DNA from: Sipunculus nudus
Taxonomy: Eukaryota; Annelida; Sipuncula; Golfingiida; Sipunculidae
DNA length: 64,000 bases
Assembly: GCA_026874595.1 (NCBI GenBank)
Contig: CM049322.1
Location: 53,719,386-53,783,385, forward strand
Direction of reading: 5' to 3'
The notes beneath the pieces were generated by a model, which did no database searches, had not been told where the DNA came from, and saw nothing but the letters and a program-made list of their open reading frames with translations. Numbering within the stretch: position 1 is the first letter of the stretch; each line of letters begins with the position of its first letter. This document shows, piece after piece, positions 14,055 to 47,114 of the stretch. The position numbers were made by a program, and so were the translations under genes.

Positions 14055-17000
14055 ATGGCGCATGTGGGCGAGTTGCTGGTCAGTGGAGTCGGGAGGGCGG
14101 GCAAGAAAGCCGGTGCCTCGTGTCGTTTGATCTGTTTTAACTGGGCCGGGGGAGGGGCAGCTCACTATATAAGATGGGCCAGAGACTTCTCAGACGAAAT
14201 AGAAGGTAGGTATTGGATTTGGTGCCTACTGCGGCAGTGATGGCTCTGTACTGTAGTCTGTAGACAGTAATGTCAGTATAGACCATATATTATATAATAT
14301 ACTATACTGATATGGTGCAAGTCTAGAATTCAGGCTGCTGTTCTGGACACGTTGAGACACCATGGATACATGTGAAATGTTGTAATAATATATCCAGTTT
14401 ACTCCTTAGTAAGTTAATGGTATCCTATATCCTTCCCATGTATCTCTTACCCTGTAATAATGTACAATTTATCTTTCCTTCACGCAATTTAACATGCTCG
14501 TATCCGTCATGATTCCAACCTCTTGCTTGTTTACACCACTTGGCCTATGTGCACATGTCCTGCCTACATCATTCACATCCGTTGTCTTGCGCCCTCCAGG
14601 CATTTGTACGCACACACATCATGGATATATTTGGTGTATTTCAAGGGTTAGGGTTCACAAATAAAACAGTGACTCCACCTTGTCTGCGGGAAGCGCGAGA
14701 CGGAGTACGGTTTAGTGGAAGGCAGTTAACAAAGGGCTGAGGGTTAATTTTTCAAGCTGTAGCGACGTCAGGGTGCCCTGACGATGCATACGCTTGACAA
14801 AAATTAACCCTCATTTTAACAACTATGACCAATTCTCAAAAGTCGATTTAAATATCCCACTCGACCCCTCACACCCAACTCGTCTGCAGTGGCAGCGCAT
14901 AGGACTTGTTTATCCATGATTGCTGGTTTGAATCCCGGTGGAGAGCTTCTCAATTGCATGTTATGTGTACTAATAATTGCATTTCTCATTACAGGTTCGC
15001 CACTAGACGGAGACACAGATACATACGGCAGACATACGAACAAGAGACTAGAAACCATAAACATAGACACCAGAAGTTTTATTCATCGACTGAAACTCAA
15101 TGGCTCAAACAGCAGCCTGAATTCTAGATGTGCTCCGTGATATATATCACTGTATGCAGAGCCACAGGATAACAAGGCCCTACCTCTGTTACCTATACTC
15201 CCTTCCAGCACCCCTGTCCAAGTAATTTTTCGTGATAATTTTTATACAATGCACAATAGCTTACCTTTATTTACACCTGAGGCAAATGTGGCATTTTCGT
15301 AAAGTGATTCCTTCCTTCTACCTTTCCCCCTTCCTATCATAGTCAATCAGTCACTGCATGCCTTCAAGTGTAGAATGTCATTAATAATACACAGTATATG
15401 AAAGATGAATAAATATGACACTGCCAGATACGACTTGATCCATTTGTGGCCCTGTAGTATATACAGAGCCACAGACCACTGCCTTCATTTATCCAGCAGA
15501 CGGAAAGCATACAAAAGGTTGATGCAGCACTTGTTCTGAATACTTTTGACCCTGTATGTTGAATGCTTGTAAAGTGAGGTTTCGTGACTTTTCCAGCCAG
15601 CCCTTCTTTAGAACACTATTTTAGCTCAGGTGACTCTAAGTCAACTGAGCTATAGTTATGGTCCTTTGTCCAATAGCTGTCCAACCATCTGTCCGTCCGT
15701 CTGTCCCCTAAACTGGCACTTTTTGAAATCATTGGACCTACGAATCTGAAATTTGCCGTACATTTAGAGGCCCCATAATCTACTACCATATCAAAAATTG
15801 AGTCACTACGACATTGTTCCTTTGTGATATTAAAAAAAAAATGCTTAGTTTTGTATTAAATCCCATTGTCACACTTAAAGACTGCATTATATCAAAACAA
15901 CTAATTAATATAAATATTCCTCTATATATGTCCTATGTAGATACCAGAAATTAGTTCAGTATTGTATAAATTATTGAAGTTATGGTCCCAAACATAATGA
16001 ACTTTGTAAAAAACAGGAAAAATATTTGCTCACTATACATGAGAACTGATGTAGCTAGAGATTTTTTTTTTGCAAGGATATATCTTTATTTAATCAAGAT
16101 TCTATTGTATAACCAAAAAAGATCTGAACATTGCAATTTTTTTAAGTTATTAGCATAAATATAAAATGGCTATCTTAAATTTTGCCCAAAATATGCTATG
16201 GCATGTTTTTTTCCTGTGAGTACTTTTGATTTCACAGCATATACACAAAGGATTCAATCTGTTAAAATCTCAAATTTTAAAATAAAAGCTAGAAAATTAG
16301 TCTACTTATTGAATTTCTGTTTGAGGCTCTTATCCTATTCACTCAATTTCACTGGCACAGTGAAACTCCAGCCAGCCCACTTCTGGTCACTGGAGGTCAG
16401 CTGTGCCAGGGTACCTGATTTATCATGGGCCACTGGTGGAGATCCACTGCTGTGGCAGGTGTACATGCACTGAATCTCATACCAACCCACCAAGTGTTAA
16501 GCAGTAATTGTTATTGTTTAAACTGGATTTCCTGAACTGTATACTGTTTCCACTCCAATATACAAAACTTTTTTCTTGAGATAGGAGTAATCCAGAAGAT
16601 GCCATATTGTAACATATGTAGCATTGTAAAAGAAATTTATTTCTTTTTTTTTTTAATAATTTTTGGGGAATCAAAATATAGTTAAACCTATCAGTATGCA
16701 TAATTTGATAATATATGAGCCAAGTTATGGATATATATAGTGGTGCAATTTAAAATTGTGAATTCTAAATCAAATGTTATTGTATCCCCAGACAAAGTCG
16801 GGGGATACTATGTTTTCATACCGGTCCCGCCGCCGCCGCCGCATATAAATCTTGTTGGCGCGATAACCCAAAAAATATTTCACGGAACTTTACCAAACTT
16901 GGTATATGTATAGATATGGGTGAGAGGACAACGCCTATTTAAAATGAGGTCATGAACTTTACTAGGAGAGTGTCCTTGACCTTGAATAGGTCCAATTTTG

Positions 17001-20000
17001 GGGAAAATCACACAAATTCTTTAATATATCAAGAAATCTTGCATGGATTTATCCCAAAATCAAGTTGATGGAAGATCATGGATAGGGTTGTCATGTTCCA
17101 GAAACTGGTGGCGCCACCTATTATTCTTTACTTGTTTTTGTGCCGTTTAATACCCCCAAAATTGCCACCTTACAGTACTGTGAGCATTATAAGTTAAAAA
17201 CTAATGGACAGATTTCTTTTATATTATGCATATACAAAGGTATGGGTTATGGGATGATGTTTATTTAAATTGGGGTCATGACCTTTCCTATGATAGTGGC
17301 CTTGACCTTGAATATTGCCATATAGGGTGAAAATCACACACCTCTTATGATATCTCCAGTGTTGATAGCCATATGGATTTCAAACATGACTTATGTATGG
17401 CCCACCACTAAAGTAAGAACCCTATAGGTTCTAGGGTCATGAGGTCAAAGGTCAAGGTCACTGGACTGGCATTTTAAAAGATACTGTGGATGCATTTTAA
17501 GCCAAACTTTCATCTTAGGTCTTCCATCTTGAATATATAGCTCACTTGCCAGTAGTGGATGATCCATATAAATTTTGGGGTCACAAGGTCAAAGGTCAAG
17601 GCCACAGGAGCTATCTGTCCAAAAATTAGTTTCTGGATGATAATTCCTGCTTTTAATGATGTATTGATTTCAAACTTGACTTATATATGTCCCATTGAAA
17701 AAGCAAGACTCCAATTGATTTTGGGGTCACAAGGTCAAAGGTGAAGGTCACAGGAGCCATCTGTCCAAAAATTAGTTTCTGGATGATAATTCCTGCTTTT
17801 ATTGATGTATGGATTTCAAACTTGACTTGTATATGTCCCATTGGAAAAGCAAGACCCAAATTGATTTTGAGGTTATGAGGTCAAAGGTCAAGGTCACAGG
17901 ACACACCTTTAAAAAGATGTGGATGCATTTTCAGCCAAACATTTCATCTCAGATCTTTCATCTTGCACATATAGTTCACCTGCCAAGAGAGGAAGAACCC
18001 TATCAATTTTGAGGTCACAATGTCAAAGGTGAAGGTCACAGGAGCCATCTGTCCAAAAATTAGTTTCTGGATGATAATTCCTTCTTTTATTGAAGTATGG
18101 ATTTTAAACTCGACTTGTATTTGACCCTTTGGAAAAGCAAGACCCAAATTGATTTTGGGGTCATGAGGTCAAAGGTCAAGGTCACAGGAAACCTTTTTGA
18201 AAAGATTGTTGATGCATTTTCAGCCAAACAATTCATCTCAGATCTTTCATCTTGCACATATAGTTCACCTGCCAAGAGTAGAAGACCCCTATCAATTGTG
18301 AGGTCACAAGGTCAAAGGTGAAGGTCACAGGAGCCATCAGTCCAAAATTTAGTTTCTGGATGATAATTCCTGCTTTTACTGATGTATAGATTTCAAACTT
18401 GACTTGTATATGTCCCATTGGAAAAGCAAGACCCAAATTGATTTTGAGGTTATGAGGTCAACGGTCAAGGTCACAGGACACACCTTTAAAAAGATGTGGA
18501 TGCATTTTCATCCAAACATTTCATCTCAGATCTTTCATCTTGCACATATAGTTCACCTGCCAAGAGAGGAAGAACCCTATCAATTTTGAGGTCACAAGGT
18601 CAAAGGTGAAGGTCACAGGAGCCATCTGTCCAAAAATTAGTTTCTGGATGATAATTCCTTCTTTTATTGATGGATGGATTTCAAACTTGACTTGAATTTG
18701 ACCCATTGGAAAAGCAAGACCTGAATTGATTTTGGGGTCATGAGGTCAAAGGTCAAGGTCACAGGAAACCTCTTTAAAAAGATTGTGGATGCATTTTCAG
18801 CCAAACAATTCATCTCAGATCTTTCCTCTTGCATATATAGTTCACCTGCCAAGAGTGGAAGACCCCTATCAATTGTGAGGTCACAAGTTCAAAGGTGAAG
18901 GTCACAGGAGCCATCTGTCAAAAAATTAGTTTCTGGATGATAATTCCTGCTTTTATTGATGTATGGATTTCAAACTTGACTTGTATATGTCCCATTGGAA
19001 AAGCAAGACCCAAATTGATTTTGGGGTGATGAGGTCAAAGGTCAAGGTCACAGGACACATCTTTAAAAAGATGTGGATGCATTTTCATCCAAACATTTCA
19101 TCTCAGATCTTTCATCTTGCACATATAGTTCTCCCGCCAAGAGAGGAAGAACACTATCAATTTTGAGGTCACAAGGTCAAAGGTGAAGGTCACAGGAGCC
19201 ATCTGTCCAAAAATTAGTTTCTGGGTGATAATTCCTGCTTTATTGATGTATAGATTTCAAACTTAACTTGCATATGTCCCATTGGAAAAGCAAGACCAGA
19301 TTTGATTTTGAAGTCATGAGGTCAAAGGTCAAGGTCACAGGACACATCTTTAAAAAGATCAAGGTCACAGGACCAACATCTTTAACAAGATTGTGGATTG
19401 TTAGATGGAAGAGACAATGAATATGCCAAGTGTCAGTATATGCTGCTAAAAATGGGGGTCTATTTATAAAGGGGGTGGGGGCCTACTATGTCTGGGGATA
19501 CTCTGGCACCTGCGGTGCCAAGAAATGTCTAGTTTTCAGATATTGGTTGTTTTGCAAATTTATAAAATTTATGTATAACAGTCCTTCGACTGGGTTCAAA
19601 AGAAAAGGGGAAGTGTCCTCTCTCTTCCATCCACGAACAAGCAAACGACCGACGTGGTGAACGGGTTTACTGCGAAGTAACAAACATACAATGATTATGG
19701 CGTGTTCCCATTACGAAGTTTGGTGACGGAATCTCATCTTTTTCTATTACAATGGAATTTTATATATAAATATTGTGGTAGTTACAATCCAGAGACATTT
19801 TAAGAAATACAATATTCAAATGCAAATGGGTTACAAGCAGTGTTACAGAATGTCATTAGACAAACGCACTATAATACAAAAGTACAGTGGATGCTCTTGT
19901 GAAGACAAATATGAGGCTTGATCGAGTGTTATAATACAAGACCGAAAATTATAAAATGAATTACGCCATTGACACACAAACCTTGATATTTGTAATAATC

Positions 20001-23000
20001 TTGTACAAAATTACGAACGCAAATAATAATGACTATCGTAGGCAATGAAGGCAATGCTTACCTGCGAAGTAACAAACATACAACAATTATGGCGTGTTGC
20101 CATTAAGAAGTTTGGTGACGGAATGGCGCAAAAATGAAGAATATTGAAGTCGTTTGTGCGGCAGAGTCAGATGTCAGGTGCAGTGTGACGTGTGCATATT
20201 AGATAAGTGAACTTAACCCTATAAGGAAATATATGCAAATGACTAATTAACTAGTGATGCCACCTGTCGGACATCATAGACACTAAAATGACCTTAAAAG
20301 ACTATAAATGGGGTGCCCTCTATTGGGCATCACTTACACTATTGAAGTATACACATGAGCCTGTTACATATGTCTTAAAAAAATTAATACATCTGTGTGC
20401 ATAATGTGATGTTATCTGATAAAATTATTGATAAATGTTGATGCAGTCAAGAACTGTGAATCAGCTTATATATTCAGTTATATATGTTATATTGCAAATG
20501 TATAAACTTGATAAACAATGTGATCTTATGCAAATATATTGCCCATTATTTTCCTGCTTAAGCAGAATATGAAATTAAATGATTGGCTATGTTGTCTGTC
20601 TCTCAGTCTATTTTTAAATATTTTATAGTTATGAATCAACCTTTTTCTTATAAGCACCTTAGAATTAAATTTCTTATCCTGTGTGTATATATACATGTAT
20701 ATGTTACTCCCACCATTAACCCCCCCCCCCCCCCTTGCCATTGTCCTTGCACCTGTGGACTTGGTGATAAGTTTTATTGCAACTATTTTATCAGTATATA
20801 AATGTGAAGTACCTTTATTTGTATAGGACCAGGATGAAATCTAGAAACCACACCGTTAACTTGTTGCTAAGACATTAGTGTTAGTATCAGAATTTGGTCA
20901 AATCAAGGATCTAAATAAGTAATATAATCTGCATGATTTCAGTGCTGGCAGTACGACTGCCAGGGAGAGAGGTCCGGTTGAGGGAGCAGCCATACACAGA
21001 TGCCGCGTCACTTGCCAGAGACGTCGCCAATTTAGTCAAAGACCAGTACTCTGATAAACCATTTGCATTTTTTGGTCACAGGTGAGTGCACCAGAATTAA
21101 ACTGTAAATTGTCTTGAGGTCTTTTTATATTAATAATTCAGTTAAAGGTTAGTAAAACATATTTTATAATAAAGAGGCATGAAGAGGCAATTCCCAAGTG
21201 GAAGAGTTAGTCAACATCTGACCATCTGGCCATATGCAAAGGTGCAAGCTCAGTTTGCAGTTGTCATTTTGGTGCTATGCATGGGTAGACTTATTAGCCA
21301 GGAGAATCTTAAGCATACACAAGATACAGATTTATTTCAAGTACATTATAGTTATATCTATTAAAATGTGGTATTGGCTGGCAAAAGAAAATGGAAATTA
21401 AACAGGCTATTTTCAGTGATGCAGGACTTTATTATGGTCTTGAGTCATCTCATTCATTGACTCCCCGAGCTTACTTGGATTGGAGGGCCCTGCATTTAAT
21501 TGGACTTATACTTCAACATGAAGTTTAGGACTGCATGTAATATATCCTTTAGAGAAATGCTCTGTTGCATACAATAATGACATAAAGCTACTTACATAAA
21601 ATACAGAAAATGACTTTATATATCAAGCCTCTCATCTGCATCAGGATGAAAATAAATGTAATTAAACATTCAGGTAAAATACATGTGTAAACAAGCAAAA
21701 TAAATATGTAAATCTCAAATTCTGTTTTTAATTTCTTTTAATAAGGAGAATTGTAACAGACTCAGACTTGGACTCGGTGCTCTATATGATTCAATCTCAA
21801 AGAAGGTGGACTTGGACTCGTGTTCCATATGACTGAGGCTCAAAATCGGTGGACTTTGACTTTAACCTCAAGGACTAGGACTTGGACCCATTATCCATAC
21901 GACTTGGACTCAAAGAAGGTGGACTTGGACTTTAAACTTTTGGACGCATATTCAAGTGGCGTGGGCTCGGACTTGCACCCAGACTTTACTACATCACTCT
22001 TAGTTATTATTGTATCCGCCAAAATGAAGTTTTGCGGATACTATGTTTTTGACCGGGTTCCGCCGAGGCGGCGGCGGCCGCGTTCATTTCCGGAGAACTC
22101 CTCTGAGACTACTGGACGGATTTTTCCGAAACTAACACAAATTATTGGGTCACATGTGAACTGGTGCCTGACCAAGTGGCCTTGACCTCTGACCTCTCTG
22201 CCCAGCGTCCATTTGTGCGTCTGTTTCCATACATAAACCCACATATCTCAGAAACCGTTTGACCGATCAGGGAAAAAATTTTTACACAAATGTAGCCCTT
22301 AGACAGCTTTATAACATACACAAAAAAGGTGGCACCACCTGCAACCATGTTTGCACAGTGTCCATCTGTTCATCTGCCTTGGGTTAAAATCGCTCATATC
22401 TCTGCAGTGGTTTGACTAATTCACCTAAAATTTGACATGCATATACATCCTAGATAGCTTTCTTGATTATATGACAGGTGGCGCCACCTTCATTCATGTT
22501 AACACTGCAGACATTAAAGCTCATATCTTGGTAACCGTTCGACCAATTAGGAAAAATTTTTTTACACAAATGTAGCCCTTGGATAGCTTTATAACATACA
22601 CAAAAATGGTGGCGCCACCTGCAGCCATTTTTGCACAGCGTCCATCTGTTCATCTGCCTTGGGTTAAAATCACTCATATCTCTGCAGTGGTTTGACCAAA
22701 TTACCTGAAATTCGGCATGCGTATACATCCCGCATAGCTTTCTTGATTTTATGACAAGTGGCGCCACCTACATTCATGTTCACGCTGTAGACATCAATGC
22801 TTATATCTCCGGACTCATTTGACCAATCAGGAAAAAAGTTTTACACAAATGTAGCCCTTGGATAGCTTTATAACATACACACAAATGGTGGCGCCACCTG
22901 CAGCCATTTTTGCACAGCGTCCATCTGTTCATCTGCCTTGGGTTAAAATCACTCATATCTCTGCAGTGGTTTGACCAAATAACCTGAAATTCGGCATGCG

Positions 23001-26000
23001 TATACATCCTGGTAAGCTTTCTTGATTTGATGACAGGTGGCGCCAGCTTCATTCACGTTCACACTGCAGACATTAATGCTTATATCTCCGGACTTGTTTG
23101 ACCAATCAGGAAAAAAAAATTACACAAATGTAGCCCTTGGATAGCTTTATAACATACACAAAAATGGTGGCGCCACCTGCAGCCATTTTTGCACAGTGTC
23201 CATCTGTTTGTCTGCTGTGGAATAAAATCACTCATATCTCTGCAGTGGTTTGATTTTTCCACCTAAAATTTTGCATGTGTTCTAATTCTCTTTGCCACTT
23301 AATCCATGCCTCACGTCACCCGTCCTACTATGATTTTGGCGGATACACGTTGTCGCTTGTCGACTACCCGTATTCTAATAACTGGTGAGTGGTAGTAGAA
23401 AGGAGGAGACATTCTTGAGTGGCATTAAAAAGAGACCACACACTTGATATTTTTTATTTTGACGGAAATTGGGGAAAAAGTTTTATGGAATTTAAATAAT
23501 GTGTAAAACTGTATTAATTTCCTTTAAAAAATATAATAACAAAATATAAGAAACCAGTCTTATTTATTGGTCATCTAAACAATACTACTTCAGCAGTTAA
23601 TAACATAATGAAGGAATTGTGTAATTTATTCTAAAAGTGATTTTTGTTACATCATTCCTATATCATTCCACAAAAATGAAAGTTAGATCATGGAAGTCTT
23701 GGTTAAATATCCAAAAGACTACAGATCTTAATGTAACTGCTCTTTACAACTAATTACTATTGTCCCAAAATTAAACCATCTGAAATTGTCTGCTGGTCTG
23801 GATTTTTAAAATAAGTACTGAATAAAAAACATGCTTGGATGACTATTGGTTTTGGAAAAGAGTTAAAAATATAAGACATGCAAGAAGTTGTATATAAATT
23901 AACCATTTGATATATCTTTTACAGTTTTGGATCTCACACATCTCTTGCTGTATCACATTACTTGAAAGTTCACCACCAGATGGAGCCAGTGCACCTGTTT
24001 GTTTCTGGAGCATATCCTCTATTTGTAAGTAATTTACAGTGAAGTTTCATTCATTAGAACACAGTCTATTAAAAAGGACATTTATCCATAATTTAAACTT
24101 GAGAACCCAAATTTTGACTATTTTATACAAACTTTTTACAAAAGTTAATTTGTTTATCTGAAATTATTATTTATTGAATCGGAAGGACAGATTGTCATAT
24201 GTGTATTTACAACTTATTAATGCTTGCATCATGGCACAATTTTATTTTGTGCATGACCACTCATCTGAACATTCATTTATCCCAACAAAGCATCGTATTG
24301 CTTGTTGATTGCAGAAAAAGTTGTAAGCTGCAGTTCATTTTTTCATAACATGTAAAATGTTACTTTTTAACTGTTTGTCAAAGACTTTTTAAATTCTATA
24401 AATAAAGTGCAAGTCAATAAAATCAATAAAAAAACTACACTTTTTTAGAGAATATTGTAAAATATATTGTAGATAAATTTTTTAGAGAGTTCAGGGATTA
24501 TTGAGGAGAATGATCATAGCTTACAGGCTTAATGATTAAGATGGGATAAGTAATTCTGCCGGTCAATTTATCAGACATTAAGGCATTCTAGTGTGTCCAC
24601 ATACTACATGCAGTGTTATAAATTCCAGGAGTCCCTGGGTAAATGTTGTTAAATTATAAACAAGGGACCCATGGGTCGTGGTGCTAAGCTGAGTTTAGTC
24701 AACTCTTGGCAAATTCAAAATTGACTTATTTCTGTTATTATACATTTTTTATCTATTTTGCATTGGAAAAGCTAATAGGAACTGGTCCTGCTATTTGATG
24801 AGAATCAACTACTTAATAAACTAGAGGTCTGCTAGTGCCCCCCCCCCCCCATCTTCTTGACTAAATTCAGCTGAGCTAAAAAGTGTATCCTGCTTTTGGT
24901 GCGTTTTCTGTCAGTTTAAAGCCCTACTTCTGACCCTCTTCCGTAAAAGAAATCCTGGCCATTTGGCATGCACAAACACGTGGCCTATACACTGATTATA
25001 ATATTTTAAGTGAACATCAACACCCTTGATGTTAATACTCAAGTTGACGACATAGTACACTGGCATATTTCCCCAGGTCATACTAAACATAAATGATGCC
25101 ACAACAATAAAGCCCTTGCATGTTCTGGTTGTGTGCTGTTTGGCCTGAGACCCCACAGCCAGCTGGATTACAGGTCCTTTAATTTATGTTTTAAGAGTTA
25201 TTGCTGCAAAGCTGGATTTTCTTTATTTTATTTATCATACCTTTTTTTATACATGTAAATTGATAACCTGCAGCAATATTTCATTTTATTTTTGGTGTGG
25301 AAGTAATTTAATGCAAATTGCAGTCCACTGAGTTGGTCCATGCATTGTAAAATTTGTTTGGGAAGTTTCAATTTTGAAATATAAGAATTTATGTATAAAG
25401 TCATAATATCTCTGTGTCTGCATATCATCACATGATTGTATACTGGTAGTAACAATTATTTTTATCTTTGTAGACTGAAGCAGGACAGCAGGTTCTTCAG
25501 TCTCGGTTACCCCCATCACAGGATGACGATGCGTTCATAGAATACCTCAAAAGACTTGGTAATACATATAGACTCTTTTCATTCCAGTGTTATTCACTCT
25601 TTACATTTGAGAACTGCATTAAGCTCAACCAAACTTGAAAGTCAGCAATCTCTGAGGTGGCCATCCTTTTGTTGTTTTAATATAAATGTTGGTCATTCCT
25701 TTTTGATGCCAAAGATTTTTGTGGCATCCCTATGAGAAATTTATCAGAGACTCATGGATGTGTTACTTCCCTAATGAATATTCATATTTTTGTAAGTTTG
25801 TTGTCATTATCAAAATGCGGACCCACCTATATATACTTGCATTAATTTTTACCTGATTTGAAAATAGATATTATGTAATGAACGGGTATGGATGTCACAA
25901 AAAGTCATAAAAAGTAACCAGGCATCTCTATATTACCTACTCAGTTAAAGAATACATATAATACTCAGGAATTTCTAGCCTTAAACATACAAAATGTTTT

Positions 26001-28829: not shown

Positions 28830-28837
28830 TATAAAAA

Positions 28838-29413
28838 TACACCTCTGTAATCTGGATAAAAGGAATATCACAACTACAAAAAATACACCCCTGTAACCTA
28901 GACAAAAAGAAATGTCACTGCTACAGAAATACACTTCTGCAACCTAGATAAAAAGAAACTTTGCAACTACAGAAATACACCCCTATAACCATGATATTAG
29001 GAATATCACAACTACATAAAAACACCTCTGTAACCTAGATAAAAAGTAATTTGCAACTTCAGAAATACACCCCTGTAACCTTGATATAAGGAATAGCACA
29101 ACTACAGAAATACACCCCTGTAACCTTGATATAAGGAATAGCACAACTACAGAATACACCCCTGTAACCTTGATATAAGGAATAACACAACTACAGAAAT
29201 ACACCTCTGTAACCTTGATAGAAGGAATATCACAACTACAGAAATTCACCCCTGTAACCTTGATATAAGGAATAGCACAACTACAGAAATACACCCCTGT
29301 AACCTTGATATAAGGAATAGCACAACTACAGAAATACACCCCTGTAACCTTGATAGAAGGAATATCACAACTACAGAAATACACCCCTGTAACCTTGATA
29401 TAAATAATGAAAC
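28838..29413 (+). repeat. 45-bp minisatellite in the OLAH 3' UTR
   Basis: About 12-13 copies of a 45-base unit, with words ACACCCCTGTAACC, TTGATATAAGGAAT and CACAACTACAGAAA. The array begins within ten bases of the OLAH stop codon. The first copies are more diverged than those at 29040-29400. Because 45 is a multiple of three, the antisense strand stays open for over 130 codons. Confidence 0.9.
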
Positions 29414-30728: not shown

Positions 30729-30730
30729 GA

Positions 30731-31211
30731 AAAAGTATATATCATCACCAAAGTGTTGAACGTTTTGCACAATTTTACAGTGTGCTGCTTCAAGAGATGC
30801 AAAAGGTTTGACATTTATCACTTATTCAGGATTTATAACACATGATTCCTCTGTATTTCATATTTCCGATAATTTTGATGAGCCAATATTTTAACATTTT
30901 GCTATCCTGAGTTGACAGAACATATTGTTTATGTTATTATATGATTATATGACTCCAAAGTACCATAATTATCCTGAAGATAAAGATTTGAACAATACCT
31001 GAGAGTATGGAAAAAGTATACTTTTAAAAAAGCGTAAAGTGCCAGCACTAATTAATTTCAATGTCTTTACTTATGTGATAATTTTGATAAAATGTTTAAA
31101 ATTATGAAGAAGCAGTTAAGTGTGGTTTGGATAAAAGCGGCTCAACTATATCACAAATCTCCTGTGTTCTGACATTGTTTGATCAAAAATGTCATAGGAG
31201 TCTGTTAATTG
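30731..31211. other. Intergenic, no gene seen
   Basis: AT-rich sequence between the SINE pair and the second family A element. Confidence 0.6.
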
Positions 31212-32473
31212 TATCGCCAGACATAGTCTGGAGATACTATGGTTTAGGCACGGTCGCCACGGTCGCGCCGCCGCCGCAGAGATTTCTTTTGGACACAATA
31301 ACTCAAAAAATATTTCACGGATCTTTACCAAACTTGGTATATGTATAGATATGGGTGAGAGGACGACGCCTATTTAAAATGAGGTCATGACCTCAACTAG
31401 TGACCTTGACCTTGAATAGGTTCAATTTTGGGGAAAATCACACAAATTCTTAAATATCTCAAGAAAACTTGCATGGATTGATCCCAAAATCAAGTTGATC
31501 AAAGATCATGGATAGGGTTGTCATGTTCCAGAAACTGGTGGCACCACCTATTATTCTTTACTTGTTTTCATGCCGTTTAATATCCCCAAAATTGCTACTT
31601 GACAGTACTGTGAGCATTATAAGTCAAAAACTAATGGACAGATTTCTTTCATATTATGCAGATACATAGTTATGGGTTATGGGATGATGTTTATTTAAAT
31701 TGGGGTCATGACCTTTCCTATGAGAGTGGCCTTGACCTTGAATTTTGCCATATATGGTGAAAATCACACAAAATCATTAATTTCTCAATAAGGGATGCAT
31801 GCATTGGTCCAAAAATCAACTTGACCGAAGATCTTGGATAGTAATGTCATGTACCGGAAACAGGTGGCGCCACCTGTTATTCTTTTACTTGTTTTCGTGC
31901 CGTTTAATACCCCATCATTGCCATTTATCAGTACTGTGAGCATTATAAGTCAAAAACTAATGGACAGATTTCTTTCATATTATGCATATACATAGATATG
32001 GGTTATAGGATAATGTATATATAAATTGGGGTCATGACCTTTCCAATGAGTGGCCTTGACCTTGAATATTGCCATATATGGTGAAAATCACACAAAATCA
32101 TTAATTTCTCAATAAGGGACGCATGCATTGGTCCAATAATCAACTTGAACGAAGATCTTGGATAGTGTTGTCATGTACGGTAAAAAGGTGGTGCCATCTG
32201 TTATTCTTTTACTTGTTTTCATGCCGTTTAATACCCCATCATTGCCACTTAACAGTATTGTGAGCATTATAAGTCAAAAACTAATGGACAGATTTCTTGC
32301 ATATACATAGACATGGGTTAGGGGATGATGTATATTGAAATTTGGATCATGACCTTTTCTATGAGTGTGGTCTGATATTAATTGTTGCTGAAGATGGGGG
32401 ACCTATTCTTAAAGGGGGGGCGGATTAATTGTCTGGGGATACTATGGCACCTGCGGTGCCAAGAAATATCTAG
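31212..32473 (+). mobile_element. Family A Helitron-like element, short copy
   Basis: The left end TATCGCCAGACA (31212-31223) pairs with GTCTGGAGATA. TGTCTGGGGATA recurs at 32430-32441, followed by the hairpin GGCACCTGCGGTGCC (32446-32460) and AAGAAATATCTAG, then T. The interior has about three units of 320-327 bp, marked by GAGCATTATAAGTCAAAAAC at about 31612, 31939 and 32260, and lacks the 288-bp array of the first copy. It lies between OLAH and SNAPC2. No protein frame. Confidence 0.72.
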
Positions 32474-33241: not shown

Positions 33242-33697
33242 ATTGCATGTGTATAAACATCATGATATCATTCATATCACTGAGTAAAATGAAGTTGCAT
33301 AATGACATATATTAATCATGCTCGACTTACTTTCCATTGATCACTCTATTTTTGTCTACATGATACTTATTGTCTGCTTTTTCAAATTACTAGAAGTCGC
33401 GGCTTCTGCAAGGAATTTTACAGTAGTCTGCAATGCAGTCTCATTCTACTATATTTGTGTGTATTAGTTATTTTTAGAGTGGTCAGTGCAATGTATTGTG
33501 AATCTGAATTCTCGTCTAATGTGGAGCATCATCAAAACAACCAATAAAAATCGTATTTAAAGAATATTTTTCTTGTGTATTAGAAACTAAATATTTTATA
33601 AAGTTCTTAACATACTTCACACCAAAACACAGACACAATATACAGTATAGAGATATTTTAATGATTTGCATGTATTTACAAACTATATATCTGAGAG
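33242..33697. other. Intergenic, no gene seen
   Basis: AT-rich. No repeat or coding signal recognised before the SINE. Confidence 0.55.
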
Positions 33698-33964
33698 TTA
33701 ATATGAAGAGCAACTGGACAGCTGAGTGGTAAAATGCTCCCCCTTCTCTGCTGGCGACCTGGGTTAGATTCCTGGTGTGGCTATAAGAGTGGGTTGTAGT
33801 GGCCCGTCCAAGGTCGATGGTTTTCTCTGGGTCCACTGGTTTCCTCTACCCATACCGACTACCCAGCGCTAACATCCGTGCCATGGAGAGTGCCTCGGAT
33901 TAGTTATTATAACTAGTTGTACAATCCATGTAAAATAAATAAAGTTTATATTTAATATGAAGAG
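33698..33964 (+). mobile_element. Full-length tRNA-derived SINE with 13-bp target duplication
   Basis: The direct repeats TTAATATGAAGAG at 33698-33710 and 33952-33964 are identical and flank the element at 33711-33951. The head has A-box-like CAGCTGAGTGGT and B-box-like GGGTTAGATTCC. The body includes GGTTTCCTCTACCCATACCG. The tail has CCATGGAGAGTGCCTCG and ends AATAAATAAAGTTTATA. The intact duplication points to a fairly recent insertion by LINE machinery. Confidence 0.88.
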
Positions 33965-35380
33965 TAGTCTTATTGCTGGGCAGCTCCTGCTATAACTGTA
34001 ATCCTTCTAAAGAACTGACCAGGCTAAGATTACACCAGACTGGGCTTTAATGGAGATAAGCCAATTTTTTTTTTTCTTCAAAGAACAACTGATCAAGAAA
34101 CTGTTTAAGAAGTTTTCTATTTAAAGCTGTTAGAACGTGTCATTTGAACTTATACTTTAAAGCTAAGATACTTGTCTCATTTGAACTGAAACTTTAAAGC
34201 TGGGATACTTTATGTACAGCATGTGGAATTCCTGTCATGAGATCACTTGCAGCACGCTTACTTTCTGTGTCACTCAGGGATACTCTGCAAAAACTGCAGA
34301 AATTTGCTACATAAAGGGATTTGTTTTGCTGGATATGCATCACAGGCATTAGGAATCACCTTATTATTTAGTCAATGCTGATTTTCATTCGCTTTCCACA
34401 TCCTGGATCCACATTTGGTACATGAGGAATTTTAGCAGAATTCCTCCACTCATCACCATACTTAACTTTACTTTTTATAAAAATTTATAGCCCTAAACTA
34501 ATTATTTTCTGAAGTTTTGTTCATCATTTGGTTATTCTGGTGCAGTTTCCAGAGAAGTCTCTGATTCACCTGTAGCAGATAGCTGTGGGAAGCATTAGAT
34601 AATTAAACACCTGATCTTGTCTAATTCCTGTGTTACCTTTTATGACATTCTTAACATAACTTTTCAGACCACAAAGACCCCTGATGGGAATTAACAACAA
34701 ATTTCTTACAACAAAAGCTAATGTTTGGTCATATCACATACATGGTTTATGAATTACCCAACCTGGAAGACTTAATTACTGGGTATTCATCATCTATACT
34801 CCATTCCACTACCCCTGCCTGCCTCTACATTGTCAGGGGTGGGGACTGCTTTTCATAAAATTCACTAAAGCTTACTTTTTTCTGTGAAACAGAAAAGGGA
34901 GGTAATAATAACGCAACAAGGAAGTACCCTCCCTCCCATGAATTTCAAGTAATGAAATTACAATGATATCTGATAAAACCTGTATTACGACAAATTTTCA
35001 CTTGCTTGTCCAAAACAGTCCTAAACTAGATCAAGTGAAGATACAAAGAGATGACATCAAAATAGGATCTTTCTTTTTACTTGCAAATGGTACATTCAAG
35101 TGCACTCTGTTATGCTACAACAAGCAATATATCTCCAATATATCACTGATGACCAAGATGGCCACTTGGTAACATATCCTTTTTTTTCAAAGATAATATC
35201 ATTTATTAACCAATGTATTTAAGCAATTATATTTATTTCATTAATTACCGCCAAGCCTCCTGTGATAATAGTGTTTGCTTCATTCAAAATAAAGTAGAAA
35301 GAAATATTACAATTAAATGCCAGACATGTAGGGTGTTGGAATGGAGTATAGTCCATATGTCTTCCCACTAAAGTCAAAGT
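33965..35380 (-). other. Intergenic and SNAPC2 3' UTR
   Basis: Minus-strand AATAAA hexamers (TTTATT on plus) at about 35232-35237 and 35202-35207, 144-179 bases past the SNAPC2 stop, are candidate poly(A) signals. ACTCCATTCCACTACCCCTG near 34800 resembles the left terminus of the 38961 and 52162 TIR elements. No gene seen. Confidence 0.5.
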
Positions 35381-38300: not shown

Positions 38301-41300
38301 AATGAAGGAATTAGATATACAGTGAAACTACCTGAGTTATGAGATCATCAAAAAGTGGCCTTTATTTACAGGTGGCCTTATTAGAGAGGTCAGCTGTAAC
38401 CACCGTGAATGATTTCTGTTAAGGGTGGTCTAAATACAGAGGTTGTCTTATAGGACAAATGAACAGAGTTTACTTACAGTTTAATTTCCTGTTATCAACC
38501 AATAAACATATATTAATTACCCCATAACTCAGTGTTAAACAGAGCTTAATCACCAAGTTACTCACCATTAAACAGAGCTTTCCGGACCCCCTCCAGCCAC
38601 TTCTTGCGGTCCGCCCCGACCACCAGCGGAGACAGGAGTCGCATCTTCTCCTTCATGACCCAGCGCTGCACCCTGGTGTCCATGACCTGAAGCTCTTTGA
38701 CGAGTGACTCCAACAGGTCCAATATAACTGCTGCATCTGTAATGAAGTGATGCACAGATGGGTCAAAAGGTCTCTCAGTGCAATCCATTGACAATGCTAA
38801 TCAAAGTGTATAAAAACGCGAAATCACCTTCCACTGGACATTTATTGGTTTTCATGTCCATGGCACACATCACAGGACTTTCCATCTAAAACAATCAAAT
38901 TTTTTATGGTTTAAAATTAACTTAATCCTCTGATGTTTGCAATAGACCTTTTTGACTATAGTCTGTTCCTGTACCCCTGTCCACCTGATTTTTTGCGATT
39001 ATCTCTACATAAGACAAATTTGGCAAACAAAATTTGCATCTTTGGCATAATGAGGCAAAAGCGTAATTTTTGGTATCTTACCTACTCACAATATAAATAT
39101 TATTTACTTTACGGCCTTGTTGACATGTCTAAAATATATCCGTGGTTGATGGTGTCCCTAATATGCTGCCATTCTTTATCCTCCTTGGATATGGATATAA
39201 AGTAATGTGACGTAACAGTGAAGCGCGTGCACGTGCAGAATACAAGTCTCGCTATAAAACAGGGGTCGGCAGCTCTTGATTATTGGTCCCGTGAATGTTG
39301 GTGTCTCTATAGTACGTCACGTCTATTATGACATCATCACTATCCCCTGATATGCCCATTTAACAGATAAGTGGCAAGATGTCGCTAAAGAATAGACTAG
39401 TTACTCATAAAATGCTTTTAAATTGTTTACAAGAAAATTACATAAGGTAAGCTATCATTTCCATAATAGTTAATTACGCTTTTTCCTCTTTCTTCCCCAA
39501 GGTCAAACAGTTTTGGCATTCTTTGATTCACAAATAAATAATAGCAAAAAAACAGGTGGACAGGGGTACTGGAACGGATTATACACATAATGGTGGTCTG
39601 CTGGGCTTGGGTTCTTTGAGCCAGCATTGCGGGTTTTGTTTAATGAAGCCAGATACATGCCACACACACAGACAGGGCTCCTACTTCTTATGATAAGACA
39701 GGATTCTTATACTTTCATCATTTTGGATAAAGCAATTAGTCTCTTTCCTTGATGTAAGGGACCCACACTGTTAGTGTGAATCTTCGCCAACAGATGTCGC
39801 TAATGTGGTGGAAAAGGTCTATTTGAGGAATATGTCTGCGTTTCTGTGCAAATGAAAAATAAACCACCAATCAGCACTTTTTTCTCCATTTGCTGAAATG
39901 TGAGTATTCCTACACGCATAACATAATGACACATAAGAGAATTTATTTACACTTAAAATAAATTAGAGCAACTCAACCAGTGGATGCTCTGCTTGTAATT
40001 ATCATTTTTGATCATGCCATATGCCCTGCGAGTATGATGTCACTTTGATTATAAAAGATCAAGCATAATATACATTTATACTTTAATAATAACAAGCATT
40101 GTGCATGAACAGGTATCAGCAAATATTAAAGATAAGTGGTGATGTAAGCATAGCTTTCTTGCACACCTTTGGGGATCATTGGATATTTTGTTGAAAAAAA
40201 AGTATTTTCTGTGTATTAAATGGCCTATTCTGATATCTGGGTCTATTAAGAAAAGGAAAATCTCAACCACCTCAAGTTACATGGTTTGTCTGTTTGTCAA
40301 CATTGCTGCATTTACTAACAGTTTTTAGATAGCTGAGCTCATACATACATCACATAAGAACTTTTCTTAACAGGAAATATCCAGGGTTCATTCATATTTG
40401 GACAGAGTAAGCCAGAAATCACATTATTTCTATATAAAAGGATGGGTGAATAGCTGGTTTTAATGGCTCAATTACAGCCTAATTCTATACAGCAATGACC
40501 ACTTAAACATATAGATTTCTGTACGACTGGTGTTATGGCTTGAAATAGGCCCAGTCTGTCCACATATAGTGCTAACAAGGTCGTGGCTGTTATGTGAAAA
40601 GTCCAAACAGATTCATCCCATGTACGCTTGTTCTCATAATGATAAGCTTACTCACCAACAGGCCGTACTTGATCAGGTGTATGGCCCCGCAGCAGTGACA
40701 CCAAGAACTGGTAGATGGCGCTGTAGTCTGCACTCTTTGTATTATGTTGTAGTTCTCTGGGTTCGTAAGCTTGTATAAGGGACAATACCTGTAGTCAGAA
40801 TGAAGTGGAATAAGGTAAAAAACAGGTATAGTTCTACAGCATAGCTAATTATGTAACTGTCAGCAAAAAACTATATTATTGTTTGAATTTATGTTAAAAT
40901 TATCAATGCTTTACCGTGTTATAATTCGTTTTTATATACAGAGGATTCATCCTTATAAATATTCTTAAATATTCCTGCACTTCAATATTAAAGTCATGCA
41001 CAAATAAGAAATTTAATTGATGTTAAATAAATGTCACCATGAATACATATTGTGGTAAGCTGAATTATCATCATATTGAAACTACAAAGGCTGACCCATT
41101 AAGACTTGCCACATAAACACTGTCGTTAGATCACAAGTAAGCAATCTAACACTTCTTTTATCACTCATCAAATGATCTTGAAAACACATGGAACCTTTGA
41201 AGTTAAGTTTATCAACTGAAACATTTATACAGGTTTATTTACTTGGATTAAAATTAATGACAGAATCATTATTCTGACAGAATTTTCTATTTTTGTAAAA

Positions 41301-44300
41301 AAAAAAAAAATTTTAAATGTATCATGTAATGGACCATGCAGGTGCAGGCACAGTTCAACAAACTGCAGGTCAGCAAGGTCACAGGTTAACTAGCTCAAAG
41401 GGAATTCCTACTCAAGTAAAATCATATCACAAAAATACCCAAAAGTGACATAGGAAAATGGGAATTAGAATATAGAATAAACACTTGGTTACAGCAGAGA
41501 AAACAGGAGACATGCATATTTTGAAAAGGTTGTTTTCAAGTTGAGCAGATCTTGGGAAAAATTTATTTGATGATTCTCAAGTTACAGCAAAAGATAATTA
41601 AGAATCTAAATGTTTATGATTATCAATCTGATTAACCCAGATTTGTCAATAATCTCTGAGTTCCAGTGGGCACAAAAAAGTACACACCTGAGCCAGAGTA
41701 TACGAGTAGTCAGTAGTGTTACTTGTCAGGGTCTCCATTTCTTCCAGCCAACACTGTAATAATACAAAGATCACATGTCATACCCCTTTCACACACAAAA
41801 CACTTTCAAATCTATTTGGGCAAAATGGTTTGGTCAAACCTTTTTGGTGCGTTCACATGGCATCTAGCACCAATGTGTGTTGAGTACATTTCGTGTGTGG
41901 AACAATGTAACAACATGCTGACACAAGCATTCATGACTGAGTTGCTGCTTGAAAAAATGAGTCTAAATAGTTTTAGAGCATTCACACAACAGTTAAACAA
42001 AGCAGATAAAAGGATTCTCATTCAAAATGGTTTTAAAAGACCTCCAGAGCTTGATCCAAAATGCTTTGGCCAAAACAGTTCGAAAACTCTTTGGATTGCC
42101 GTGTGAATGCTCTAAAAGGTTACCAAACCGTTTGAAAATGGTTTGCATTTGCCGTGTGAATGGGATAGTAATTCTGTACTACAAAGTATCAAATACTGCC
42201 ATGACTGCAGTACAGTACTGTTATATCAACATACAACATTCTGTTATATCAGAACCAAATAAAGCACAGTGCATTATTAAATACTTGGACTGGAGTACTC
42301 GTTACCAAAGCAACAGTACATTTCAACAAAAATATTGTACGGCAAAAATATGCTATAAATTTATCTAGAGGCTTCTAGAAAGATTTGACGATGTAAATGT
42401 ATGGCACTGAAGAGTTAGTGATCCTTAAATAAATTGACTTATTATGAATAATTACATGTAATTACAAATGTATATTCTGATATGTGAGCATGCACATGTA
42501 AAAGGAGTCTTAGGTAATTTAATTTGGTTTTGATTAATGTTATATATTTATTTTAACTAAAATACTTGGCATCTCCTATCAGCTATATTAGGGGTACTTG
42601 AAAATAATATTGAATGTTATTACACAAACACCTTTCCAGACTAACCTCAATAGGTGCCTTGATATTAAAATCATGGTCTGGCAGTGCTTTTTCTGAAAAA
42701 AAATCACAGGAGTCAGCAGTATACAAATTATTCCCTTCAATTCAGATAAGCTGATGTTATCTTATTATTTTGCAACTAGATATTCACTATGCTTTTTTCA
42801 ATGGAAACCAAAATAATGTTTTCAGATGAAAAGACCATATGCTGTGTTAATTCTTGTTACTGGTCATGTGTGTCTGTCTTATAATGGGTTCCACCAACCT
42901 GTTTCCACCTGTTTCTTGGAGATAATTTTCTTTAAATTTTTAATTTTTCAATAATTTCCCAATATGTCACATGAGCTCCACCGGCATCAAACCCTTGTTC
43001 ATTCTTTATTAAGGTTTTTTTTGCCTAACATTACATGTATGCCTAATATAGGGTTTAAATAAAAAAAAAAAAACCCTATATTGTGGTAGGTGACACCCTT
43101 GTCCTGTCTGAAGATGCTTTATTCCAATTTGCTCTGCTGCTCTACAACAACAGTTGTGGTTTCAAACATTTGACACCCCATCTGGCATATCCCCTATTGG
43201 CCTAAATTTGACTGGGAATACAAAAACAGCTTGAGCTAATTCCATTTCTAACCTCCCCCCCCCCCCCCCAATTATATGTGATATAGGGTCTGATGCAGAT
43301 TGCATTTCTGTGTGAACAACAGAAATTATAAAAGGCTGTAAAATATAATAATGATTGGCCTTCTTTAGAGCTCATATTATTTACTGTCAGCTTAGCTATA
43401 AGGTACTAACACCACCTGTTACATTTTCTTTAATTAACTTACCTTTGTTCCTCAGCCGTAAACGGTCCATGTACTCTTTTACCTGATAAAAAAAGAGAAA
43501 AGTATAATTAATTTTATTTTCAAATGAAGTTAACAGCATCCAAAGTGAGCATTACCAATTCAACCATGGTTTTTTATATTACATCAGAAATGTTATATAT
43601 TCTTATTATATAAAATGAAATAGCATCTGATGTGTGGAGATAAAACCTGCTCTGTAAAGATTAAACCCTGCACTGAGAGGATGATGCTTTGGAATGTTAA
43701 CCTAAGTATTGCACCTCGGAACTTTTTTCAGGAGTGCTGTATGCTGACTTGCTGCCTCATCTTTTACAGATTTACTATGTTATGTTGACATTGGCACAAG
43801 TGCAAGACTGAATTAAACTAGAATACTGGTAGTCGACAAGCGACTACGTGTATCCGCCAAAATCAGAGAAGGACGGGTGAAGTAAGGCATGGATTGAGTG
43901 GCAAGGGGATATAGAGTTACATGTGTTAAATATTAGAATGGATCTCTGCCACATAAACATGATTGTAGGTGGTGCCACCTGCTATTTGAAACTATCCAAG
44001 ATAAATACACAAGCAAAATTTCATGTGGAAAAGTCAAACCACTGCAGAGATATGAGTGATTATATCCCACAGCAGGCAAACAGATGGACGCTGTGCAAAA
44101 ATGGCTGCAGGTGGCGCCACCATTTTTGTGTATGTTATAAAGCTATCCAAGGGCTACATTTGTGTAAAAAATTTTCCTGATTGGTTGAACGAGTCCATAG
44201 ATATAAGCATGGATGTCTACAGCGTGAACGTGAATGTAGGTGGCGCCACCTGTCATAAAATCAAAAAAGCTATGCGGGATGTATAAGCATGCTGAATTTC

Positions 44301-47114
44301 AGGTAATTTGGTCAAACCACTGCAGAGATATGAGTGATTTTAACCAAAGGCAGACAAACAGATGGACGCTGTGCAAAAATGGCTGCAGGTGGCACCACCA
44401 TTTTAGTGTATGTTATAAAGCTATCCAAGGGCTACATTTGTGTAAATATTTTCCCTGATTGGTCAAACGGTTCCCGAGATATGAGCTTGGATGTCTGCTG
44501 CGTTAACATGAATGTAGGTGGCCCCACCTGTCATAAAATCAAGAAAGCTATCTAGGATGTATATGCATGCCAAATTTTAGGTGAATTAGTCAAACCATTG
44601 CAGAGATATGAGTGATTTTAACCCAAGGCATATGAACAAATGGACACTGTTCAAACATGGTTGCAGGTGGCGCCACCTTTTGTTGTGTATGTTATAAAGC
44701 TATCCCAGGACTACATTTGTGTAAAAATTTTTTACGGATCGGTCAAACGGTTCCAGAGATATATGGTTTTATGTGTAAAGGGTTAACGTGAATGTAGGTG
44801 GCGTCACCTGTCATAAAATCAAGAAAACTATCTAGGATGTATATGCATGCCCATTTTTAGGTGAATTAGTCAAACCACTGCAGAGATATGAGTGATTTTA
44901 ACCCCAGGCAGATGAACAAATGAACACTGTGCAAACATGGTTGCAGGTGGCGCCACCTTTTGTTGTGTATGTTATAAAGCTATCCCAGGGCTACATTTGT
45001 GTAAAAAATTTTTCCGCATCGGTCAAACGGTTCCCGAGATATAAGGGTTTATGTGTGGAGCGTTAACGTGAGTGTAGGTGGTGCCACCTGTCATAAAATC
45101 GAGAAAGCTATCTAGGATGTATACGCATGCCGAATTTTAGGTGAATTAGTCAAACCACTGCAGAGATATGAGTGATTTTAACCCCAGGCAGATGAACAGA
45201 TGGACAATGGCAAACATGGTTGCAGGTGGCGCCACCTTTTGTTATGTATGTTATAAAGCTATCCCAGGGCTACATTTGTGTAAATTTTTTTTCCGGATCG
45301 GTCAAACGGTTCCCGAGATATATGGGTTTATGTGTGGAAACAGACGCACAAATGGACGCTGGGCAGAAACGAAAGGTCAGAGGTCAAGGTCACTTGGTTA
45401 GGTACCTGTTCACATGTGACCCGATAATTTGTGTAAGTTTCGGAAAAATCAGTCCAGTAGTCTCAGAGGAGTTCCCCAGAAACGAACGTGGCGGCGGCAG
45501 CGGAACCCGGTCAAAAACATAGTATCCGCAAAACTTTGTTTTGGCGGATACAATAAATGGATACTTAATTTAACAGTGACAAAAGCAAGCTGGTGACGAA
45601 GTGCTGTTCCATACTGTACCAAGAAAATTTGCATCACCCACCTCATTTGTTTTCTTGGTTGGAATACAGCGACTTATCTTGTTTAGGTCTGTCTGGCCAT
45701 ACCTGAAAAGGAAAACGGGTATACATTATTCACTATATATTAAATAGATATATATCTATATATAGTTTAGGACTAGAAACTACATGTGTTTTACAGCATT
45801 TTACAAGGTGTGTGTGTTTGTATTTTTACTTAAATATTGCTGGGTTCAGATTTAAGCTGTGTTTTCTACTGCTGTTTGCTTATACATATTCATGACAAAC
45901 AAACATGCATGTATTATAACATATCTACTCCCTCTGCTCCTCTCAAAAAATCAATAAACCAAAAATAAAAAAGTCTGGTCTAACTTGGGTGATAATGATT
46001 CACTGGTGAGCAATATCGCATGACACAAAGCAAATAATCAAACTGGTATCATAAGATGTTCCTGCACTGATAGGCTGATGATATTTGATCATTTGATGAG
46101 AAGTGACATCTGACATTTAAAATACTGCCAAGCCTTAGCACCATGTAACACATTAAAAGTGAAATTTCACTCGTAAGAAAAATAGTTGAAAGACATCCTT
46201 ATGACTAATTGTTTGTTAATAAAATACATTTATGGTTTAAAAATACATTTTGCAAGAGTAAATTTATTCAAATTTCCATATACAAAATAAAAATTCACCT
46301 TGGAATGTAATTATTTATATTAAATTATCATGTGTCATATATTGTATTGCGTATTATATGGTGAGTAAAGGATAGTGGAACCCCACAATTACAACCACCT
46401 TGCAGACTGACCATAGTGGTTATAATTTAAGGGTGGTAATAGTTGTGAAATTCTGGATACCTGGTCAATATATCTGGGACCAAGAAAAGTTGTAATTGTC
46501 TGGCGATTGCAATTATGGCGTGGTCTCAAAGCAGGGTTCCACTGCATCGAGATATGTATCATATGGTGGGATAATGTATGGTTACAGCCCTTGGTCTAAT
46601 GTTGTATTGTGAGATAATATACAATTACACTCCTAGGCCTAACATCCTATTGTGAGATTCTGTGGGGTTACAGCCCTAGGTCTAATGTCAGATCATGATA
46701 TAATGTATGATTACAGCCCTAGATCTAATTTTGTATAGTTACATATCATGGTCTGACTTCATATCATGAGATAAAGTACGGTTACAGCTCTAGGTCTAAC
46801 CTTTTTACAGCCTCCAGCAGCCACTGTTTCTCTTCAATTGTCCAGTTATTGGTCCTCCTCCAGTCACACTTCTTTATCTTGTATAAGTCCATGTTATCCG
46901 CTTCGTATTCATCATCACATACTCTCTTTCTCCTCTCACGCTGGCTCCGCCTGGTGGAGGTGGGGTCTACTGGCTTTCTCTTTCTTCTCCGTTTTGTTGT
47001 TTTCTCAGACTCCCCTGGCTCAGTGCTGCCATCTTGTGTGGGTTTCTCTGTATTACATGTTGTATCTTCCTCTGCATTTGTGGCAGTTCCTTCCTTTGAC
47101 CTGGTAGCTGCCAT
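35381..47114 (-). CDS. SNAPC2: snRNA-activating protein complex subunit 2 (SNAPC2-like), complete, 9 exons
   Basis: Exons on the minus strand, in order: 47114-46801, 45702-45642, 43482-43443, 42692-42646, 41753-41688, 40788-40656, 38736-38566, 38040-37591 and 36099-35381. They total 2001 bases, 666 aa plus TGA, with GT..AG introns and matching phases. Residues 41-64 are strongly basic. Residues 88-138 form a SANT/Myb-like helix set (NNWTIEEKQWLLEAVKR). APIECW (151-156) matches the APIEVW block of human SNAPC2, DAAVILDLLESL (221-232) its AVVLDLL block, and INPLCIPIPLLNP (649-661) its PLNPFLVPLELL end. SNAPc binds the proximal sequence element and starts Pol II and Pol III snRNA transcription. 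At 666 aa it is about twice the human 334; the excess is a Ser/Thr/Ala-rich exon 8 and a repeat-bearing exon 9. The start is the first ATG after a possible TTGCAG acceptor, so a 5' UTR exon is likely. Confidence 0.87.
35588..35943 (-). repeat. 108-bp coding repeat in SNAPC2 exon 9
   Basis: Residues about 480-598 hold three diverged copies of a roughly 36-residue unit built on PPDQVxD, PPDQMxDTQ and SEKxTATxDN. The last two copies are exactly 36 residues. The phase-preserving period and low complexity suggest a disordered tail expanded by DNA slippage or unequal exchange. Confidence 0.8.
36687..36800 (+). repeat. Dispersed repeat, copy 1
   Basis: ATACTGTGGT, CTTTTTGTTAAC and GAAACCTTCATGAA followed by a CTACACAGG end are shared in order with 52979-53095. 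It lies in the last SNAPC2 intron. No ends or coding frame identified. Confidence 0.55.
37386..37567. mobile_element. Small TIR element, mariner-like (SNAPC2 intron 8)
   Basis: It starts TACGGTTACACCTGT and ends ACAGGTTTAACTGTA; the inverted repeats match at 13 of 15 positions and begin with TA, as expected for Tc1/mariner. The inside repeats GTGGTCTTA-type words. It ends 24 bases from the SNAPC2 exon 8 donor. A related, more decayed block lies at about 38314-38460. Confidence 0.55.
38961..39580. mobile_element. TIR element, GTACCCCTGTCCACCTG family, copy 1 (SNAPC2 intron 6)
   Basis: The left end contains GTACCCCTGTCCACCTG and the right end CAGGTGGACAGGGGTAC, exact reverse complements over 17 bp, with weaker pairing outward. 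The inside aligns over its whole length with 52162-52752 (for example TTGGATATGGATATAAAGTA and GTGACGTAACAGT). No transposase frame in either copy. Confidence 0.75.
39581..40655 (-). other. SNAPC2 intron 6, remainder
   Basis: AT-rich, with no coding signal and no repeat recognised. Confidence 0.6.
40789..41687 (-). other. SNAPC2 intron 5
   Basis: AT-rich intron between exons 6 and 5, with a short poly-A run near 41298. No repeat recognised. Confidence 0.65.
41779..42168. mobile_element. Candidate MITE in SNAPC2 intron 4
   Basis: The left end TACCCCTTTCACAC and right end GTGTGAATGGGATA are imperfect inverted repeats. The interior is rich in AAACCNTTT-type words in both orientations (GGTTTGGTCAAACC near 41829, AAACCGTTTGAAAATGG near 42125), so the single strand could fold extensively. 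No target duplication confirmed. Confidence 0.45.
42693..43442 (-). other. SNAPC2 intron 3
   Basis: AT-rich intron containing a 15-base C tract (43255-43269). Nothing else recognised. Confidence 0.65.
43818..45550 (-). mobile_element. Family B Helitron-like element, reversed copy (SNAPC2 intron 2)
   Basis: Read on the minus strand it begins TATCCGCCAAAAC (45550 leftwards), pairs with GTTTTGCGGATA, and has GC-rich sequence inside. It ends with ATTTTGGCGGATA (43863-43851), the hairpin GTAGTCGCTTGTCGACTAC (43847-43829) and CAGTATTCTAG, then T. The interior is five units of about 280 bp (GTTATAAAGCTATCC at about 44132, 44412, 44690, 44973 and 45251), each with two GGTGGCGCCACC-type palindromes. 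No protein frame. Confidence 0.75.
45703..46373 (-). other. SNAPC2 intron 1, part
   Basis: AT-rich, with no coding signal and no repeat recognised. Confidence 0.55.
46374..46543. mobile_element. Small TIR element in SNAPC2 intron 1
   Basis: AGTGGAACCC near the left and GGGTTCCACT near the right form short inverted ends. The inside alternates GGTTATAATTTAAGGGTGG with TTGTAATTG words. An ACAGTGGAACCCACC at about 602 looks like a lone end of a related element. Limits are approximate. Confidence 0.4.

Follow-up and report, generated by a model that had tools for sequence, protein, structure and literature searches.

The 64,000-nt stretch of Sipunculus nudus DNA analysed here (the window) contains four elements with intact ends, which fall into two short non-coding families: A, with A1 (16780..19532, 2753 bp, + strand) and A2 (31209..32473, 1265 bp, + strand), and B, with B1 (22010..23378, 1369 bp, + strand) and B2 (43818..45553, 1736 bp, − strand). 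The left end has the same order in each element: TT, a site that we call S1 (GTATC...), a loop of 3-5 nt, an adjacent inverted copy (S2) with which S1 forms a 5' hairpin, and TATG. A short CCG-rich stretch lies behind the left end and is followed by tandem arrays. S1 is 12 nt long in A and 13 nt in B, and in all four copies it begins 2 nt in from the inferred 5' end, a boundary ambiguous by 1-3 nt. The third site, S3, is a second inverted copy of S1; it is subterminal in all four, upstream of a 3' hairpin, with 31 nt (in A) or 32 nt (in B) between it and the 3' end.

Two families of short elements and their surroundings

In A1, S1 occupies 16782..16793 (+; GTATCCCCAGAC), S2 16797..16808 (+; 11/12 complementary to S1) and S3 19490..19501 (+; 12/12 complementary to S1, 31 nt before the 3' end). 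Its 3' hairpin at 19504..19520 (+; TGGCACC-TGC-GGTGCCA) stands 12 nt before the end, and the central tandem array at 17572..19359 (+) has units of 146/288 bp. A2 carries one change in S1 relative to A1 (31211..31222, +; GTATCGCCAGAC) and a mismatch in S2 opposite the changed base (31226..31237, +; GTCTGGAGATAC); its S3 (32431..32442, +; GTCTGGGGATAC) matches its own S1 at 11/12 positions and is followed by the same 3' hairpin as in A1, with central repeats of 326 bp at 31399-32370. The two A copies are identical at 529/591 aligned positions (90%) in their first 600 bases and at 86/108 (80%) in their last 110.

B1 has S1 at 22012..22024 (+; GTATCCGCCAAAA), S2 at 22030..22041 (+; TTTTGCGGATAC, 12 pairs and one bulged base) and S3 at 23334..23346 (+; 13/13, 32 nt before the 3' end), with a mismatch in the 3' stem downstream and central repeats of 279 bp at 22256-23253. 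On the − strand, B2 has S1 at 45539..45551, S2 at 45522..45533 (again 12 pairs with S1 and one bulged base) and S3 at 43850..43862 (13/13), then the 3' hairpin GTAGTCG-CTTGT-CGACTAC; its central repeats of 280 bp lie at 44032-45336. Identity between B1 and B2 is 166/184 aligned positions (90%) in the first 190 bases and 91/109 (83%) in the last 110. Two further pieces on the − strand belong with this family: a diverged B-type 3' part (E, 49042..49473) with an S3-like site and a 3' hairpin (GTAGTTG...CAACTAC), in which no 5' end was seen, and a second, more decayed B-type 3' end (F, 48590..48672), for which no 5' end was found. About 450 bp separate E from F, which stand in series at 48590-49473 (−); they could be a truncated element backed by an older 3' end, or else two elements of which one is nested in the other.

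A1 and B1 share only 60-63% aligned identity at their ends, which we take to be little above what unrelated sequence may give in a gapped alignment, so that common descent of the A and B ends is not demonstrated outside the motif. Two stretches on the − strand without recognised ends are partial relatives of these elements: 47503-48068 resembles the A1 tandem array (longer matches 69-76% identical) and 51065-51324 the A2 body (longer matches about 65-67% identical). The A1 monomers (17572-19359) carry GGTCAAAGGTCAAGGTCA repeatedly, which we take to resemble a nuclear-receptor half-site, and the B monomers (22256-23253 and 44032-45336) carry the palindrome AGGTGGCGCCACCT; each insertion therefore brings a regular array of such sites.

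The longest stop-to-stop frame is 80 codons in A1, 56 in A2, 105 in B1 and 108 in B2, the element ends being rough by a few bases. No Pfam match to a Rep/helicase was found in the 10 scanned of the window's 21 frames of at least 110 codons. Among these 10 of 21, a single frame had Pfam matches: an ERCC6L2-type gene encoding a SNF2-type helicase, taken as a host gene, in an uninterrupted frame of 1055 codons at 55101-58268 (−), to which the ERCC6L2 C-terminal domain model scores 23.7 bits, below its cut-off of 27. The window also holds a separate tandem array at 28835-29403 (45-bp unit, 12.6 copies) and a short repeated motif at 39177-39197 and 52386-52406 (TATCCTCCTTGGATATGGATA and TATCCTGCTTGGATATGGATA), near a pair of 188-nt repeats that are 79% identical. 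This motif apparently represents a repeat family different from A and B.

Chance, folding and joint change of the three sites

A preliminary description of this DNA, made from the sequence alone, had placed a terminal motif three times in each element, and S1, S2 and S3 are indeed found at the proposed places in all four copies. The repeats are one base longer than it had read them (GTATCC...GGATAC, 12 bp in A and 13 bp in B), and its motif for family A holds for A1, with A2 departing from it at the sites given above. To gauge chance, both strands were scanned for an 11-mer S1 followed, across a loop of 1-14 nt, by an S2 with no more than one edit and, 400-4000 nt further on, by an S3 with no more than one mismatch. 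This arrangement occurs at 11 places in the window, whereas 97 dinucleotide shuffles gave 3.8 on average and never more than 9; four of the 11 are A1, A2, B1 and B2, and the remaining seven are probably noise. The three-site pattern alone is therefore weak, and one copy of it would not convince, but four that keep the same spacing do. Requiring a 3' hairpin as well leaves three places (A1, A2 and B2), where the shuffles average 0.07 and never exceed 1; B1 drops out because of the mismatch in its 3' stem.

Single-strand folding points the same way for the 5' hairpins, which reach −9.1 to −10.9 kcal/mol (z −5.5 to −7.5), with none of 200 shuffles as good for any of the four. The 3' stem is perfect in A1, A2 and B2 and is less distinct than the 5' hairpins by folding: z is −2.9 in A1 (4/200 shuffles as good), −4.4 in A2 (0/200), −2.5 in B2 (4/200) and a weak −1.0 in B1 (31/200). 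Among the 3' remnants, E folds with z −3.0 (3/200) and F shows no fold (z +0.9, 156/200). Chance hairpins as the source of the four copies are rejected by the composite search, which all but B1 pass, together with the 5' folding.

The sites differ between the families in step. One inserted base and two substitutions separate S1 of B from that of A1, and S3 of B has the exact complement of all three. When S2 of B is compared with a perfect partner of A's S1, three positions differ, each restoring a pair with B's S1 (judged by eye); S2 of B is also one base short, leaving one S1 base bulged. With the alignment set by hand, matching positions within a copy number 11-12 for S1:S2 and 11-13 for S1:S3, whereas across families the four intact copies, under the same kind of hand-set alignment, give 8-9 and 9-10, respectively. 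The proposal that the three sites change together from A to B is therefore borne out as a joint difference seen in four copies; it should be noted that this is a single contrast, comprising three alignment columns.

The further proposal, that the hairpin and its match to S3 are maintained, fares less evenly: the joint change of the two families speaks for it, while unmatched changes in A2, and in S2 generally, speak against it. S2 is imperfect in all four copies (11/12 with one mismatch in A1 and A2, 12 pairs plus one bulge in B1 and B2). In A2, the changed bases of S1 and S2 face each other as G against A, unpaired, which is decay and not compensation, and S1:S3 has one mismatch. The S3-like sites of E and F match B's S1 at 12/13 and 10/13 positions, respectively. 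Unmatched changes in A2, in S2 of A1, in E and in F are as expected for old, dead copies. One paired change, C-G to T-A, distinguishes the 3' hairpins of B2 and E.

Patterns built from these elements were also searched for elsewhere. The 5'-end pattern had no match in viral contigs and three in genome contigs (L001-L003, bacterial and archaeal records). These three were taken as chance and not as relatives, their arms pairing (by eye) for just one base more than the six that the pattern prescribes. The 3'-end pattern of A and a 21-mer of the B central repeat gave no matches in viral contigs.

Classification, pairing strength and alternative explanations

The two families are very probably non-autonomous, HINE-like rolling-circle elements of the Helitron2/Helentron type, with S1 and S3 as the ATIR/subTIR (S1 the 5' and S3 the 3' ATIR) and S2 as the known extra inverted repeat. 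The preliminary description had likewise pointed to a rolling-circle transposase and to Helitron2/Helentron-type ends, and the asymmetric inverted ends, the hairpins at both the 5' and 3' ends and the absence of coding capacity fit a non-autonomous element of this type moved by a Rep/helicase from elsewhere. Central tandem repeats and a lack of coding capacity, both features of HINEs, are present in A1, A2, B1 and B2. In all four copies an A precedes the terminal TTG and a T follows the terminal CTAR, which reads CTAG in A1, A2 and B2 and CTAA in B1. Such flanks fit the canonical Helitron rule of insertion between A and T, and, with the end moved by one or two bases, also the Helentron rule of insertion between T and T.

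In all four copies the S1:S3 duplex is stronger than the S1:S2 duplex (−14.1 vs −11.2, −11.8 vs −10.6 and, twice, −15.7 vs −11.0), and cross-family controls pairing A1 with B1, both ways, are weaker (−5.5 to −8.9). On the mechanism that we propose, a Rep/helicase from an autonomous element would nick at the 5' end, and strand displacement would expose S1:S2 as a hairpin. At the 3' end, S3 would pair with S1, or the enzyme would recognise the same site again; the hairpin would open and the second nick would be made after CTAG. If so, S1, S2 and S3 must keep matching, and would consequently change in concert as a family and its own transposase diverge. Bao and Jurka (2013, excerpts of PMC3627910) proposed that pairing of the 5'-ATIR with the 3'-ATIR destroys the 5' hairpin and sets the endpoint of replication, and the energy order in the four copies agrees with their proposal. 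The idea of a switch is theirs; what is added here is the consistent order of S1:S3 over S1:S2 in four of four copies from two families, and this preference for S3 over S2 is the point worth carrying forward. We also entertain, as an unlikely speculation, that the weakness of S2 relative to S3 is deliberate: the 5' hairpin would work as a reversible latch, always open to displacement by S3, and the joint change would tune a strand-exchange switch ending rolling-circle transfer.

The same joint change would be forced by a protein that binds at several sites, and one can therefore ask whether S1, S2 and S3 are three copies of a single duplex binding site for a Rep protein, with the hairpin never needed and the covariation reflecting a changed protein preference. 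This reading contests the mechanism and not the classification. S2 and S3 repeat each other in direct orientation, both readable as duplex sites, and the bulge and mismatches in S2 indicate that perfect pairing is not required. However, the 5' loop is only 3-5 nt, with the arms adjacent in all four copies, which favours a hairpin, and at the 3' stem A1, A2 and B2 form a hairpin with sequences that are unrelated between the two families. We regard the binding-site explanation as doubtful, while giving it real weight.

Two other explanations bear on the classification itself. That the elements are cut-and-paste MITEs moved by a DDE transposase, with S1 and S3 as terminal inverted repeats, might be suggested by the history of the Pearl-type bivalve elements, which were first called MITEs (excerpts of PMC7492417), and by 4 bp (TTTA) that match precisely at the junctions inferred for B2. 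Yet the ends are asymmetric, and conserved sequence runs for 31-32 nt past S3 (29/31 positions identical between A1 and A2, 29/32 between B1 and B2, by eye), so S3 is not terminal. Comparison of the flanks of A1, A2, B1 and B2 found no target duplication common to the four: A2 has a 5-bp junction match at shifted offsets, and no tested offset gives a match longer than 3 bp in A1 or 2 bp in B1. With neither symmetrical terminal inverted repeats nor a target duplication of fixed length, a DDE MITE was rejected, and we find it scarcely credible. Canonical Helitron1 elements in which the 5' hairpin arose by chance would account for the CTAG/CTAA ends, the 3' hairpin 11-12 nt upstream and, in one possible reading of the boundaries, the A and T flanks in all four copies, and oyster elements that combine marks of Helitrons with those of Helentrons are published (parts of PMC7992393). 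Against this, a 5' TC is found in none of the four copies, whose 5' ends read TTGTATC, and both families have an ATIR and a 5' hairpin, which Helitron1 lacks by definition (PMC3627910, in the parts cited). A Helitron1 origin is thus very improbable, and the Helitron2/Helentron-type assignment is the one that we compare with published elements below.

Comparison with published elements

The three-site end signal that differs in step between A and B is real, yet this end structure is already published for Helitron2/Helentron-type transposons. The preliminary description erred in regarding the third, hairpin-forming copy and its covariation as undescribed, since, in the parts of the papers drawn on here, this anatomy is published for Helitron2 (PMC3627910), DINE-1 (PMC2374699), Helentron (PMC4067079) and Cg_HINE (PMC7492417). 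What that unaided reading of the raw sequence did achieve was to recover correctly the published structure that defines Helitron2/Helentron ends, its compensatory logic included. Excerpts of one paper on satellite DNA and pearl elements in molluscs (PMC5139131) contain nothing on the three-site arrangement.

The 5' hairpin copy defines Helitron2 in Bao and Jurka (2013; PMC3627910, in part), where compensatory base mutations keep both features in Helitron-1N1_CQu and -1N2_CQu. A and B resemble Helitron2 as described there, in which the 5'-ATIR lies 0-2 bp from a 5' end that begins with T and forms a 5' hairpin with downstream nucleotides, the 3'-ATIR immediately precedes the 3' hairpin at a distance of about 20-30 bp from the 3' end, and related elements show compensatory changes. 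Unlike Helitron2 in the same excerpts, A and B end in CTAG/CTAA, as canonical Helitrons do, and have S3 31-32 nt from the 3' end. An extra inverted repeat was described for DINE-1 of Drosophila by Yang and Barbash (2008; passages of PMC2374699); DINE-1 inserts at TT, whereas the flanks of A and B can be read as A and T or as T and T. Thomas et al. (2014; PMC4067079, in part) carried the extra inverted repeat over to Helentrons and reported DINE-1-like elements in molluscs, with palindromic subTIRs replacing the IR in some Helentron families.

Helitron-like sequences of the Pacific oyster have a 3' hairpin and CTAG ends, and 86% are inserted between A and T; subTIRs occur in 257/751, 33% of those with an IR (parts of PMC7992393). 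A and B are like them in the CTAG end, the 3' hairpin, insertion between A and T (in one reading of the boundaries) and, for a portion of the oyster sequences, subTIRs with an IR, and differ from them in starting with T(TG), where the oyster sequences start with TC. Among the non-autonomous Helentrons named Cg_HINE in Crassostrea gigas, Vojvoda Zeljko et al. (2020; sections of PMC7492417) described 11 elements with a subTIR of 11-12 bp, accompanied by a complementary IR of 7-12 bp at a distance of 1-12 bp, and, in one group, element-specific changes in the subTIR, IR and stems. The likeness of A and B to Cg_HINE, which is one of anatomy and not of sequence comparison, extends in the same sections from the subTIR and IR to a microsatellite after the left end, central tandem repeats and a 3' subTIR followed by a palindrome. 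The gain for biology is further copies of two families of a known kind, and, set beside these systems, A and B are ordinary, both families being of a kind already in print and having the end anatomy described for it.
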